From the NCBI RefSeq assembly GCF_017094505.1, contig NZ_CP064787.1, positions 1,364,001 to 1,428,000 of the forward strand: a stretch of 64,000 nucleotides of DNA, given 5' to 3'. This document shows positions 3,321 to 50,237 of the stretch, one piece after another; the stretch's first letter is position 1; every line of letters begins with the position of its first letter. The notes under the pieces are model-generated. The model did not search any database. It had not been told where the DNA came from and saw only the letters and a program-made list of their open reading frames with translations. The stretch comes from Halapricum desulfuricans. Its GTDB lineage: Archaea > Halobacteriota > Halobacteria > Halobacteriales > Haloarculaceae. A program made the translations under genes and the position numbers.

Positions 3321-4298
3321 ATGTCACAGCAATCTGAGTTCCCCGAGTATCTCGACGTCGATTACACCGACGGCGAGGGGGAAGACCCCGAGGACTACGC
3401 GAGTATCGAGGACAAGATCGAGAAGGCCATCGAAGTCACTCGCGAAGGCCTTGAGCAGTACGAGAACCCGGTCGTCATGTGGACCGGCGGCAAGGACTCG
3501 ACGCTGACGCTGTACTTCGTCAAGGAGGTCGCCGACCGGTTCGACCTGGAGGTGCCGCCGGTCGTCTTTATCGACCACTACCAGCACTTCGACGAACTCA
3601 TCGACTTCGTCGAGCACTGGGCCGACGAGTGGGACCTGGAGGTCATCTGGGCGCGAAACACCGATGTCGGCGACTACGTCGACGAGCACGGGCTGGAGCC
3701 GGGCGACGACATCCCGATCGACGCGCTCAGCGAGCACAACCGGCACCACGTCCGAGAACTGCTGGAGTACGAGGAGGAGACGTTCCCGTTCCTGCTCGAT
3801 ACCTACGTCGGCAACCACCTGCTGAAGACGGTCGCGCTCAACGACACCCTCGAAGCGCACGACGTCGACGCCGTCCTCTCGGGCGTGCGCTGGGACGAAC
3901 AGGAGGCCCGCGCCGACGAGACGTTCTTCTCGCCGCGCCACGATCCGGACATCTATCCGCCCCACGACCGCGTCCAGCCGATCCTGCAGTTCACTGAAGC
4001 CGATGTCTGGGAGACGTTCTGGAACTTCGTCGTCCCGGACACCGTCAAGGCGTTCCCCGAAGACGGCTACGTACCCCAGGGCCAGGACGACTTGCCCGAC
4101 GGCGTCGGGAAGGAAGACGTCCCCGTCTCGCCGAAGTACTTCGCCGGGTTCCGCTCGCTCGGCAGCGAGGTCAGCACGGACAAGGCCGCCGAAGAGCCCG
4201 CCTGGCTGCAGGACATGGCCAACACCACCGAGCGCGCCGGCCGCGCCCAGGACAAAGAGGACCTGATGGAACGGCTGCGCGACCTCGGCTACATGTGA
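3321..4298 (+). CDS. CysD-like / PAPS-reductase-family PP-loop ATPase
   Basis: A 325-residue protein with the PP-loop TGGKDST at residues 55-61, the AMP-forming motif shared by CysD (sulfate adenylyltransferase subunit 2) and PAPS reductases. The later pieces SGVRWDEQEARADETFFS, FAGFRSLGSE and TTERAGRAQD match CysD more closely than reductases. I see no cysteine anywhere in the protein, so the catalytic Cys of a true PAPS reductase is missing. No cysN GTPase gene lies nearby. The start at 3321 is preferred to the upstream in-frame one at 3198 because the intervening sequence is AT-rich promoter-like DNA. It probably adenylates an unknown substrate; the name in databases is usually 'phosphoadenosine phosphosulfate reductase family'. 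Confidence 0.85.
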   Translation: MSQQSEFPEYLDVDYTDGEGEDPEDYASIEDKIEKAIEVTREGLEQYENPVVMWTGGKDSTLTLYFVKEVADRFDLEVPPVVFIDHYQHFDELIDFVEHWADEWDLEVIWARNTDVGDYVDEHGLEPGDDIPIDALSEHNRHHVRELLEYEEETFPFLLDTYVGNHLLKTVALNDTLEAHDVDAVLSGVRWDEQEARADETFFSPRHDPDIYPPHDRVQPILQFTEADVWETFWNFVVPDTVKAFPEDGYVPQGQDDLPDGVGKEDVPVSPKYFAGFRSLGSEVSTDKAAEEPAWLQDMANTTERAGRAQDKEDLMERLRDLGYM

Positions 4299-4314: not shown

Positions 4315-4360
4315 GGACTCATACGGTCGGTTGTAAGTCTGTTCCGGATCGATCGCACCC
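4315..4360 (-). repeat. Dispersed intergenic repeat, copy A
   Basis: An element of about 45 bases between the CysD-like gene and the DUF5813-type gene. It shares the core GTCTGTTCCGGATCGA with copies near 22165, 29018 and 31072. Written on the minus strand, it can be read as GAIDPEQTYNRPYES, closely matching the same-frame reading of the other copies. No start codon or promoter makes it an obvious gene. Orientation is given by that common reading frame. Confidence 0.7.
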
Positions 4361-4457
4361 GGTATGCGATCGTACCGGTAAATCGTTACAATCGACCGTA
4401 TCAACGTCGACGTCCCGACACGACGTATTTTTGCTCGTCGCGGCGTTACAGCGAGCG

Positions 4458-14747: not shown

Positions 14748-14881
14748 CCTCACACGGCGGTACGTCTGTTCTGCGTCGGTCGTGCCGTCGTGTCGCGTGG
14801 TGAGCGAGTGCGGTTGAGAAGAAACCGCATGAGACGACTCCTCACATCAGACCTTTGTCGGGGGCACTTCTGAGTGTGGTT

Positions 14882-21394: not shown

Positions 21395-22135
21395 ATGGAT
21401 CCCGCGGTACTGCGCGAGGACATGGTCGACAGCCTCGAACACGAGAGCAAGGGCTGTCTCGGAGACGAGCAGGTGTCGCTGGCGATGCGGTCGGTCGAAC
21501 GCGAGGCGTTCGTGGAGGAGGGAGCCGCCTACGCGGATCGAACGTTCGAACGCTACGGGACGCGCGTGCTCGCTCCGAGTACCGCCGCGCGTCTGCTGGA
21601 TGTACTCGCTCCGAGACCCGACGAGCGCGCGCTGGTCGTCGGCGCGGGCATCGGTTACACCGTCGCCGTGATCGCCGAGGTCGTCGGCGCGACCGACACC
21701 CACGCGATCGATATCAACCGGCAGCTGGTCTACGAGGCCCGATCGAACCTCTCGACGGCGGGCTACGGCGAGGTGCTCGTCGATCGCCGCGACGGAGCTG
21801 AAGGGCTGGCCGCCTACGCCCCCTACGACTGTATCCTGCTGGAGGCAGGCGTCGTCGAGCCGCCGCGGGCGCTGCTCGAACAGCTGGCACCCGACGGTCG
21901 GCTCGTCGCGCCGCTGGGGGCCGGTACCCAGACGCTGTCAGTCGTCTCGAAAGACGGCGAGATCGAGCGACACGGGACCGTCGCCTTCCAGCCCATGCTG
22001 GTCGACGGCGAGTCGGCCCACGAGGTCGAACGCAATCGAACCCACCGCGAGGATCGGGAGTTCGCCCGCAAACACGCCGAGTCACGCCCCGGCTGGGAAC
22101 AGGACTGGATCGACTGGGACGACTCGCGGCGGTGA
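21395..22135 (+). CDS. pcm: Protein-L-isoaspartate O-methyltransferase-like protein
   Basis: A 246-residue class I methyltransferase of the PCMT type. Family pieces are MRSVEREAFVEEGAAYADRTF, then the SAM-binding VVGAGIGYTVAVIAEVVG near residues 77-94, and an acidic strand end in THAIDINRQL. Bona fide enzymes repair isoaspartate in damaged proteins. The conserved N-terminal 'GQTIS'-like substrate loop is not obvious here (FERYGTRVLAPSTAA instead), so it may be a divergent second paralogue; haloarchaea often have two. The C-terminal 40 residues are charged and extend past the core. Confidence 0.82.
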   Translation: MDPAVLREDMVDSLEHESKGCLGDEQVSLAMRSVEREAFVEEGAAYADRTFERYGTRVLAPSTAARLLDVLAPRPDERALVVGAGIGYTVAVIAEVVGATDTHAIDINRQLVYEARSNLSTAGYGEVLVDRRDGAEGLAAYAPYDCILLEAGVVEPPRALLEQLAPDGRLVAPLGAGTQTLSVVSKDGEIERHGTVAFQPMLVDGESAHEVERNRTHREDREFARKHAESRPGWEQDWIDWDDSRR

Positions 22136-22164
22136 TCGCACCCATTCATCGGTCCGGCCTCACA

Positions 22165-22209
22165 GGTGCGGTCGATCCCGAACAGACGTCCAACGGTCGC
22201 TATGAGTCC
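22165..22209 (+). repeat. Dispersed intergenic repeat, copy B
   Basis: Copy B of the roughly 45-base element, between the Pcm-like and AAC(3)-like genes. On the plus strand it reads GAVDPEQTSNGRYES. It is inverted relative to copies A and D and parallel to C. Much of its difference from copy A is at third codon positions or in a few changed residues. Confidence 0.7.
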
Positions 22210-29017: not shown

Positions 29018-29059
29018 ATAGCCAACCCGGAACAGACTTACAGCGGCCACTATCACTCG
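29018..29059 (+). repeat. Dispersed intergenic repeat, copy C
   Basis: The most diverged clear copy: the common frame reads [14 protein letters not shown]. It lies between a winged-helix gene and msrB and runs into the msrB stop codon. The shared core is CCGGAACAGACTTACA in this orientation, matching copy A when inverted. Confidence 0.6.
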
Positions 29060-31135: not shown

Positions 31136-31915
31136 TCAGGTCCGTCGCTCGTCCAGCCACGCCAGCAACTCGTCGGCGACGACCCGCGGCTGTTCGACGT
31201 GGACCAGATGGCCGCTCTCGACCGCTCGACCCTCGCCGCGCGGGAGCTGTTCGGCCAGTCGTCGGCCTGCCTCGGGATCGACAATCGCGTCCTCGACGCC
31301 GTGAAAGACCAGCGAGGGCGTCGTCACCTCGTACAGATCGGTCAGTTCGGCCTCGCGCATGGCGGCCAGCTGTCCGTCCCAGCCCGTCCGACCGGCGTCG
31401 TCCGTCGCCCGCCACTCGACGATCCGTCTGATCTCGTCGGGGTGTGCTTCGACCGTGCCGGGCGCGAACGCCACCTCCAGCGACCGCTCGAGCTCTTCCG
31501 GTTCGTCACTGGGGGCGCGAAGCCAAGCGAGCGCGTCGAAATCGACGTCCGACGGAGCAGTCGGAGTCCCCATTAGTCCGAGCGACTCCGCTCGTCCGGC
31601 GCGGCGGGCGTACTCGACGGCGACGACCCCGCCGAGACCGGCCCCGAGGAGGTGCACCGAGCGAGCACCGTGGTCTGAGAGCACGGCGTCGAGATCGGCC
31701 GTCAGGTCACGAACAGTGTAGGGTCCGTCGGGCGTCCCGGAGTTCCCGGTCCCGCGATAGTCGAACACGACGACCTCGTATTCGCGCGCGAGCGGCGTCA
31801 CGAGGTAGCTCCACTGCCAGGCGCCGAGACCGGCGACCCCACAGCAGACGACGGTCGGCCCCTCGCCGTGGACGGCGTACTCGATATCGACAGCGCCGTT
31901 ACGTGCAGTCGGCAT
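31136..31915 (-). CDS. Alpha/beta-hydrolase-fold protein with altered nucleophile elbow
   Basis: A 259-residue protein clearly of the alpha/beta hydrolase fold: IEYAVHGEGPTVVCCGVAGLGAWQW, VVVFDYRGTGNSG, then HLLGAGLGGVVAVEYARRAG and a C-terminal ESGHLVHVEQP with the catalytic-type His. At the nucleophile elbow the normal G-x-S-x-G reads G-A-G-L-G, so the catalytic Ser is replaced by Gly. Either it is inactive as an esterase or it uses another chemistry. The ATG at 31915 gives the standard start; a longer frame to 32035 is not supported. Confidence 0.87.
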   Translation of the reverse strand: MPTARNGAVDIEYAVHGEGPTVVCCGVAGLGAWQWSYLVTPLAREYEVVVFDYRGTGNSGTPDGPYTVRDLTADLDAVLSDHGARSVHLLGAGLGGVVAVEYARRAGRAESLGLMGTPTAPSDVDFDALAWLRAPSDEPEELERSLEVAFAPGTVEAHPDEIRRIVEWRATDDAGRTGWDGQLAAMREAELTDLYEVTTPSLVFHGVEDAIVDPEAGRRLAEQLPRGEGRAVESGHLVHVEQPRVVADELLAWLDERRT

Positions 31916-32033
31916 GACCCGTAGTTGGGCGGCCGTCCTCGTGTGGGTTTCGACAGCCGGACGAAGCGCCTCGACCGGGACGCGCCGATCCGGTTCCGCA
32001 TCGGTTATGCACACGGGGACGGTAGACGGGGAC

Positions 32034-33008
32034 ATGAGCGACGAGGGTGGTCCCCGGCAGGTCGGCGACCCCGACTACCACAGTGTCAATCACACTGCCG
32101 TCCAGACGTGTGGGTGGACCGACAACGCTCTCCAGGGCGAGGGCAAGTGCTATAAATACGCGTTCTATGGCATCGAGAGCCACCGCTGTATGCAGATGAC
32201 CCCGGTGGTGAAGTGCAACGAGCGCTGCGTGTTCTGCTGGCGTGATCACGCCGGCCACGCCTACGAGCTGGGCGACGTCGAGTGGGACGACCCCGCGGCG
32301 GTCGCGGACGCCACGATTGACCTCCAGCGGAAGCTGCTGTCGGGCTACGGCGGCAACGACGACGTCCCCCGCGAACGGTTCGAACAGGCGATGGAGCCGC
32401 GCCACGTCGCCATCTCGCTGGACGGCGAACCCACGCTGTATCCCCACCTGCCCGAACTCATCGAGGAGTTTCACGACCGGGAAATCACGACGTTTCTGGT
32501 CTCGAACGGGACGAAACCGGAGATGATCGAGCGGTGTGAGCCGACCCAGCTGTATATCTCGGTGGACGCGCCCGACCGAAAGACATTCGAAGAGACCGTC
32601 AAGCCCGTCGGGGAAGAGCTCTGGGAGCGGCTGATCGAGACGCTGGACGTCCTCGCGGCGAAAGACGACACCCGAACGGTGCTTCGGACGACGCTCGTCG
32701 GCGGCGAGAACGACTACCGTCCGGCGTGGTACGCCGCGATGGCCGACCGCGCTGACGTCGATTTCTTCGAACTGAAGGCGTACATGCACGTCGGCCACTC
32801 TCGAGGGCGTCTCGACCGCTCGTCGATGCTCGACCACGACGACGTCGTCTCGTTCGCACGCGAGGTCCAGTCGTTCCTGCCCGACCACGATCACCTCGTT
32901 GACGTGCCGGACTCCCGGGTCGCCATGCTCGCACGAGACTCGGACACCTGGGTGCCGAAACTGCAGAAAGGAAGTGAATTCTGGGCGGACGATCCGGCTG
33001 CGCGCTGA
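32034..33008 (+). CDS. twy1: tRNA 4-demethylwyosine synthase (Twy1/Taw1)
   Basis: A 324-residue radical-SAM enzyme that builds the tricyclic wyosine base at position 37 of tRNA-Phe from m1G and pyruvate. The radical-SAM cysteines are C61, C65 and C68 (CNERCVFC), and the second cluster's cysteines C26, C39 and C52 are present. [18 protein letters not shown] is diagnostic for the family. It starts at the ATG at 32034; an earlier in-frame ATG at 32007 is possible. The partner enzyme Taw2 is encoded at 36564, so the window carries two steps of the wyosine route. Confidence 0.96.
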
Positions 33009-49293: not shown

Positions 49294-49394
49294 TCTATGC
49301 ATGTGTATCTCTCACACGGAAATTGATAAGTCTTCCGCGGATCCGGATCAGAGAGATTCAAGCGGGCAGTATGAAGCGAGTGCAGAACGCCGAT

Positions 49395-50237
49395 TCAGGT
49401 CTCTGAGGACTCTTCGTCCTCGATTTTCTCGTCGACCTTCGCTTCGACTTTCTCTTCGACCGTTTCGTCGACCTTCTCTTCGACGGTTTCCTCGACCTTC
49501 TGTTCGGCCTTCTCCTCGACGGTCTCCTCGACCTTCTGTTCGGCCTTCTCTTCGACAGTCTCCTCGACCTTCTGTTCGGCCTTCTCTTCGACAGTCTCCT
49601 CGACCTTCTGTTCGGCCTTCTCTTCGACAGTCTCCTCGACCTTCTGTTCGGCCTTCTCTTCGACAGTCTCCTCGACCTTCTGTTCGGTTTTCTCCTCGAC
49701 TGTTTCGCTGACAGCGTCCTCGACCGATTGCTCGACAGTCTCTCCGACCTTCTCTTCGACAGTCTCGTCAACGGCCGCTTCGACAGATTGCTCGACGGTC
49801 TCGCCGACTGCTTCGTCGACTTTCTCTTCGACGGTCTTGTCGACTGTCTCGTCAACTGTTGCCTCGACGGTCTCACCGACGGTCTCCTTGACTGTCTCGT
49901 CAACTGTTGCTTCGACAGTCTCACCGACAGTCTCCTTGACTGTCTCGTCAACCGTTGCTTCGACGGTCTCACCGACGGTCTCGTCGACCTGCTGTTCGAC
50001 GGTTTCACCGACCGTATCGTCGACGGTTTCCTGAACCGTCTCTTTGACCGTTGTCGTCATCCAGTCGGGGTCGAATCGAGCCATCTTCCAGATGATATGG
50101 ACGATATACGACACCAGTACACCGATCCCGAACGCCAGGCCGATGGGCCCCTCTGCGAGCAGGATGAGCCCTACTGCGAGCGCGATCAACAGCCCGTAAG
50201 TCAGATCGATGAGCGAATCGACGCGACTCGGATTCAT
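49395..50237 (-). CDS. Membrane-anchored tandem-repeat coiled-coil protein
   Basis: A 280-residue protein. The N terminus holds two hydrophobic segments (about residues 13-29 and 32-50, LTYGLLIALAVGLILLA and GLAFGIGVLVSYIVHIIW). Everything after residue 60 is an amphipathic repeat of the type VxETVxxxV: a 16-residue unit (VGETVEATVDETVKET) three times, then a degenerate stretch, then a 12-residue unit (VEEKAEQKVEET) about six times. It should form a long, highly charged helix on the cytoplasmic or outer face. No homologous family was recognised; apolipoprotein-like or YtxH-like helices are the nearest in style. Confidence 0.88.
   Translation of the reverse strand: MNPSRVDSLIDLTYGLLIALAVGLILLAEGPIGLAFGIGVLVSYIVHIIWKMARFDPDWMTTTVKETVQETVDDTVGETVEQQVDETVGETVEATVDETVKETVGETVEATVDETVKETVGETVEATVDETVDKTVEEKVDEAVGETVEQSVEAAVDETVEEKVGETVEQSVEDAVSETVEEKTEQKVEETVEEKAEQKVEETVEEKAEQKVEETVEEKAEQKVEETVEEKAEQKVEETVEEKAEQKVEETVEEKVDETVEEKVEAKVDEKIEDEESSET
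49495..49710 (+). repeat. 36-base tandem repeat array inside the repeat-protein gene
   Basis: Six units of 36 bases. The four from 49531 to 49674 are identical to each other; the outer two (49495-49530 and 49675-49710) differ at a few bases. The unit reads ACCTTCTGTTCGGCCTTCTC then TTCGACAGTCTCCTCG on the plus strand and codes for twelve residues on the minus strand. Identity at synonymous sites implies recent copying or gene conversion. Confidence 0.9.
49861..49956 (+). repeat. 48-base tandem repeats inside the repeat-protein gene
   Basis: Units at 49861-49908 and 49909-49956 are near-identical (differences at a handful of bases), with a partial third unit following. They encode the 16-residue VGETVEATVDETVKET-type unit on the minus strand. 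This second, more diverged array is older than the 36-base array by its mismatches. Confidence 0.8.

Follow-up and report, generated by a model that had tools for sequence, protein, structure and literature searches.

The short repeat dispersed between genes in a 64,000-nucleotide stretch of the Halapricum desulfuricans genome (contig NZ_CP064787.1, positions 1,364,001 to 1,428,000; hereafter the window) belongs to an element that transposes with a 3-bp TNA target duplication, and that has moved after the two Halapricum genomes compared here separated. It is very probably a haloarchaeal non-autonomous mobile element (MITE) of about 80 bp, consisting entirely of one imperfect hairpin and moved in trans. 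What had been an unexplained intergenic string thus becomes a defined and recently active mobile element, present in many genera of haloarchaea and known in its exact ends, target and fold. The family can be masked or annotated in haloarchaeal genomes without delay.

Anatomy of the element and its four copies in the window

A preliminary description of the window reported a repeat of about 45 bases in at least four copies and in both orientations. The string is real, and all four copies lie where they had been placed, but the unit itself is larger, as the 45 bp form only the left half of a near-perfect inverted repeat of about 80 bp with a 3-bp duplication. The element has 15-bp terminal inverted repeats, a TNA target duplication (nearly always TCA/TGA) and zero coding capacity. 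Strong copies are near palindromes with the layout TAGTGACCGTTGTA-CGTCTGTTCCGG-ATCGACCGCACG..CGTGCGGTCG-CACCGGTAAATCGT-TACAACGGTCACTA and TCA or TGA on either side. A search of the window with covariance model R1, built from 18 copies of the source genome, matched these four places only, with the right half decayed in all but copy 1, which is intact:

4319-4403, plus strand: copy 1, intact, of subfamily B (TACGGTCGGTTGTAA ends); TCA, the 79-bp hairpin element at 4322-4400 and TCA; R1 98.5 bits
4322-4336, plus strand: left terminal inverted repeat of copy 1, 15 bp, with one mismatch to the reverse complement of 4386-4400
4337-4352, plus strand: GTCTGTTCCGGATCGA, the core given in the preliminary description; left side of the internal loop, CCGG stem and start of the inner hairpin, as placed from the alignment
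4386-4400, plus strand: right terminal inverted repeat of copy 1, 15 bp
22133-22205, minus strand: copy 2, decayed, with the left half recognisable and the right half shortened and diverged; R1 32.6 bits
28970-29055, minus strand: copy 3, right half decayed; R1 33.2 bits
31073-31155, plus strand: copy 4, right half decayed; R1 40.7 bits

Copy 1, whose neighbours are a PAPS-reductase-family gene (ending at 4298) and a DUF5813 gene (Pfam), reads TCA-TACGGTCGGTTGTAA...TTACAATCGACCGTA-TCA from end to end, and this copy by itself contradicts the earlier view that inverted ends and target duplications are not obvious and that the repeat therefore does not resemble an ordinary insertion sequence. A weak fifth copy suspected at 14757-14785 gave no R1 match even at E=5.

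The statement that copies always lie between genes holds roughly, with exceptions at the very edges of genes. Copy 2 is flanked by TCA/TCA in element orientation at a gene distance of 0, and its flanking triplet TGA at 22133-22135 is also the stop codon of a PCMT methyltransferase gene (21395-22135; Pfam PF01135). The TCA at 29053-29055 beside copy 3 is, likewise, the TGA stop codon of a minus-strand SelR-domain gene that ends at 29053 (Pfam PF01641). Copy 4 goes a step further, as the minus-strand alpha/beta-hydrolase gene 31136-32035 (Pfam PF12697) has its stop codon (31136-31138) inside the decayed right half, and the remnant may therefore supply the stop and the last codons of this gene.

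The element is present in many copies and in several sequence families

A search of the 2.94-Mb source genome for the 23-bp core, allowing up to 3 mismatches, gave 38 matches; the reversed control pattern gave none. R1 gave 122 two-strand matches at E<=0.1, from which 72 distinct sites were analysed, so the source genome holds at least 72 copies. Neither a frequency at chance level nor a restriction to the four copies of the window, the two outcomes that were to speak against an element family, was thus observed.

Two further families, C (TACTGGTGGC...; TACTGGTGGCTATAA ends) and D (TACTGCCGGC...; TACTGCCGGCTGTAA ends), were found in the same genomes. Their sequences are unlike those of A/B, yet length, target and fold are common to all. 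Elements of C and D measure 78 bp, as seen at loci L189, L194, L198, L199, L384 and L385 of G001, the sister genome closest to the source genome within the genus, in which the ends pattern gave at least 74 forward and at least 71 reverse matches.

Empty sites, target duplications and nested insertions demonstrate movement

Equal triplets flank 38 of the 72 source-genome copies (TCA at 28 and TGA at 10). Independently, 1.7 Mb of loci were scanned for equal TNA flanks together with 15-bp inverted ends starting with TA, and 200 short elements were recovered, with a length peak at 80, 79 and 78 bp and with TGA (97), TCA (96), TAA (4) and TTA (3) as duplicated triplets; the loci were mostly chosen for holding elements and some overlap, so that these counts include repeats.

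Eight copies in G001 face an uninterrupted site in the source genome, and at all eight the two genomes align once the 80-bp element and one triplet are removed from G001. The single triplet is unchanged at five of these empty sites (L188/L201, L071/L202, L186/L203, L184/L204 and L187/L207) and carries one substitution at the other three (L066, L182 and L181). The clearest case is L188/L201, with about 97% identity around the site. The reverse situation was also seen: G001 lacks the source-genome copy at 2780905 and has in its place a single TGA that serves as the gene's stop codon, and this was the only clear case in that direction, as intergenic DNA around source-genome copies is mostly too diverged from G001 to be read. 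In addition, three B elements of G001 (L384, L385 and L194) are interrupted by an element of family C or D, with the TAA duplicated on either side, at the identical position GTTG-TAA-GTC, and head-to-tail elements with a common TCA are present as well. Taken together, the empty sites, the duplicated targets and the nested copies show that the element is mobile, in agreement with the mobile miniature element named in the preliminary description as one of several possibilities.

Two minor observations concern the choice of site. With three nested insertions at GTTG-TAA-GTC, the foot of the B element's terminal stem is an insertion hotspot. Read on the GTCTGTTCC strand, the source-genome copies have an orientation bias (duplicated triplet TCA 28 vs TGA 10, p=0.005), unlike loci mostly of Natrialbaceae, where TCA and TGA were found 28 and 26 times.

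Distribution among haloarchaea

The search of related genomes that had been proposed was productive. Within the genus, each of the six genomes gave 41-133 two-strand matches, and in the order of the source genome 102 of the 293 genomes and 38 of the 87 genera match, with Natrialba, Natronorubrum, Natrarchaeobius, Natronococcus, Natrinema and Halovivax among the carriers. When 247 genomes were drawn from the phylum, 11 of them matched and all 11 belong to that same order; genomes of this draw from outside the order gave no match. Presence is patchy within families, as is expected of mobile DNA.

Matches on plasmids are few (Haloarcula, Halococcus, Haloterrigena, Halapricum), and family D occurs also on plasmids of Haloarcula hispanica, Halomicrobium and Haloplanus. 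In 200 kb of a Halomicrobium plasmid we found one intact D element and zero long elements. No element of this kind was seen in two Haloquadratum plasmid stretches (97 kb), no match was found in phages, and viral contigs searched with three patterns gave no match either.

Insertions are enriched at stop codons

As genes were called with a home-made, simple codon-usage caller, the figures on insertion sites are approximate. The genes next to the 72 copies are arranged convergently in 21 cases, divergently in 18 and in tandem in 33. In 18 (47%) of the 38 copies with equal flanks, the triplet that was duplicated also ends the neighbouring gene as its TGA stop codon, which is more than the share of 21% expected from the 38 stop codons among 180 available T[C/G]A sites (binomial p=0.0003), a background drawn from a single 64-kb window.

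When an element inserts at a TGA stop codon the protein is left untouched, because the duplicated triplet restores the stop. Such insertions, being harmless to the protein, would be tolerated and thereby enriched, and landing on a stop codon with duplication would give a transposon a simple low-harm route of spread in compact genomes. Three of the eight G001-specific insertions are at stop codons, and at least one of the eight lies inside a gene call; fresh copies within genes are found at L182/L206 and possibly at L186/L203. The enrichment may therefore stem from tolerance under selection, from some preference for the target, or from both.

A conserved fold that covaries across lineages

Folding, also proposed earlier, revealed a very stable predicted hairpin: copy 1 has a predicted free energy of -42.2 kcal/mol, 6.7 standard deviations below shuffled sequences (z -6.7). 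For the analysis of covariation we used 19 elements of equal length that differ pairwise at 14 or more positions and that were picked for inverted ends. In the proposed fold 91.7% of the cells of these 19 elements are paired, while structures slid along the alignment reach only 25-44%, and the covariation score was attained by none of 500 shuffles. There are 16 compensatory pairs, in which both sides have changed, 10 of them in the terminal stem, which is favoured by the selection for inverted ends, and 6 in the inner stem, which is free of that selection. A single transposase reading both ends would explain why the ends covary, but not why the inner hairpin does. Certain mismatches are fixed too, as columns 16:65 are G-G in 18 of the 19 elements and columns 18:63 are paired in none. 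It is thus unlikely that one arm being corrected by the other accounts for all of the covariation, because the mismatches themselves are conserved.

Families A/B, C and D have in common a 15-bp stem, an internal loop of about 7x7, a 3-4-bp stem, a 2x2 loop and a 9-10-bp hairpin, within 78-80 nt, with C departing somewhat in the middle. This conserved length and fold suggests that propagation needs a whole folded or length-fixed unit, beyond the tips.

The behaviour of old copies is quite different. In the decayed copies of the source genome, pairing of the outer stem is 0.784 vs 0.759 expected under independent drift, and that of the inner stem 0.856 vs 0.839. Resident copies thus decay almost neutrally after insertion. 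Set against the covariation across lineages, this near-independent drift indicates that the structure seems to matter while the element spreads, and not to the host once a copy is in place. We also noticed that in the weakest source-genome copies the left half is better kept than the right (0.79 vs 0.69), a weak tendency that may reflect how these copies were found.

Search for a mobiliser

The 1.7 Mb of loci contained no autonomous transposon sharing these ends, and among the matches listed for the terminal inverted repeats in G001, all pair as elements of about 80 bp, as nested elements or as remnants. Thirty loci with PF01609 transposases were scanned, and matching ends were seen in none of them. 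The source genome has only two weak PF01609 matches, one of them broken, and no match to PF13586 or PF05598; PF13586 is absent across the genus.

Two candidates were considered and rejected. A 1.5-kb unit with D ends (G001, L245:1004-2501) turned out to be an unrelated insertion sequence inside a D element, which mimics a transposon with D ends; this insertion sequence, which we take to be ISH8-like, encodes a 458-aa PF01609 transposase and has its own ends (CATCCGTCTTTAGCTAAGA...). A RAYT-like layout, with a gene between paired elements, was dismissed as well, since the sequences of the genes enclosed by close pairs, when read, did not resemble those of transposases.

How the element may move, and what else it could be

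Because the element encodes nothing, a transposase supplied in trans would recognise both ends and join them to a staggered 3-bp cut. As far as the duplication by itself indicates, this mobiliser would most likely be a DDE enzyme choosing TNA targets, and the inserted copy would then be left to almost neutral decay. A TNA 3-bp duplication is known for IS1031-like members of the IS5 family, which the triplets duplicated here (TCA, TGA, TAA and TTA) resemble. A quite different idea is that of a host element kept for a function in place, such as a bidirectional 3'-end structure, an RNA stabiliser or a small RNA, and spread by occasional duplication. The great stability of the predicted hairpin, its frequent location exactly at stop codons and its covariation across lineages would agree with it. 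We nevertheless regard it as highly improbable, since copies lie upstream as well as downstream of genes, with the divergent, convergent and tandem arrangements alike, fresh copies are found also inside genes, and the two sides of old pairs drift almost independently. Rfam 15 at its gathering score gave no match in the window. For the same reasons neither the small RNA family nor the widespread regulatory site entertained in the preliminary description is upheld, and there is little sign of a role at the host site.

The conserved architecture brings up another possibility, namely that the element might be mobilised as a folded hairpin, in single-stranded DNA or as a cruciform, and not through ordinary double-stranded ends. 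A recombinase would then recognise the conserved mismatches, much as happens with integron attC sites or REP/RAYT hairpins. Families that are unlike in sequence and alike in fold, the fixed 16:65 and 18:63 mismatches amid covarying pairs, and the lack of a transposon with matching ends (in the 1.7 Mb of loci and among the G001 terminal-repeat matches listed) would all be in line with such a mechanism. However, a clean 3-bp TNA duplication is the product of staggered cutting of double-stranded DNA and speaks against attC- or Y1-like chemistry, systems not known to duplicate their target, while the fixed mismatches could equally mark non-inverted protein-binding sites in double-stranded DNA; we thus consider this mechanism unlikely. 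Slightly less unlikely, though still speculative, is a haloarchaeal class of mobile DNA defined by its fixed 78-80-nt folded architecture and not by sequence, with the dissimilar families A/B, C and D as members, in which a structure-recognising enzyme would make the 3-bp TNA duplication. A small mobile repeat (SMR) in the Haloquadratum sense, i.e., a short inverted-repeat element without a transposon of matching ends, is conceivable but doubtful. The size class is alike (family HqIRS41 of SMR-B is 80 bp; PMC3119063), as are the prominent inverted repeats, the lack of a matching transposon in our search and the insertion into other mobile elements, but SMRs are reported without target duplication, whereas the present elements duplicate TNA, and the 97 kb of Haloquadratum plasmid held nothing of this kind. 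The trans-mobilised MITE thus remains our preferred reading.

Comparison with known short elements

ERIC and RUP are bacterial, and their sequences, lengths and target duplications differ from those of the haloarchaeal element. Like it, they are short, imperfect intergenic palindromes, and they are regarded as transposons of the non-autonomous kind (general knowledge; PMC10969869, PMC2229807). REP/RAYT systems are alike in forming high-copy extragenic palindromes with conserved imperfect hairpins, but REPs depend on Y1 tyrosine transposases, which make no target duplication (general knowledge; PMC2817692), while a clear 3-bp duplication is seen here. An origin as an IS605-derived PATE was rejected, as PATEs have neither terminal inverted repeats nor target duplication and both are present here.

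Every feature of a MITE that lent itself to testing is found: the element is short, lacks a transposase gene, has terminal inverted repeats and a target duplication, and is multi-copy and mobile. Nevertheless, in contrast to MITEs such as those of Haloquadratum walsbyi (reviewed in PMC10969869), no autonomous partner was found in the loci scanned or among the G001 terminal-repeat matches listed. The Haloquadratum MITEs are reported to have ends related to known transposons and to reach up to about 500 bp (PMC3119063), while here the length is fixed at 78-80 bp and the whole hairpin covaries across the lineages of an order. MITEs do not usually conserve an entire inner hairpin.

The closest published description, a likeness drawn from the description, is that of SMR-A and SMR-B of Haloquadratum walsbyi, which are about 80-110 bp long with prominent inverted repeats and ends unrelated to any transposon found (PMC3119063). 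SMR-A targets PATEs and IS605-type elements (PMC3119063), whereas the nested targets observed here are sister hairpin elements. We did not class the element as an SMR because of the TNA duplication. The open-access literature, to which our search was directed (subscription papers and ISfinder were outside its scope), gave no description of this element family.

A fixed hairpin architecture in dissimilar sequences, with no visible transposase, raises the testable question of whether folded DNA is read by the mobiliser, and the interest of the element would rise if this were true. The D copies on plasmids of Haloarcula hispanica make the mobiliser question open to experiment in that species.

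A tandem array in the same window

Elsewhere in the window, at 49381-50088, a repeat scan showed a tandem array with a 12-bp period and 45 copies in register, which overlaps open frames on either strand. Of these, the frame on the minus strand (49358-50008) would encode a low-complexity protein rich in R, S, K and P.
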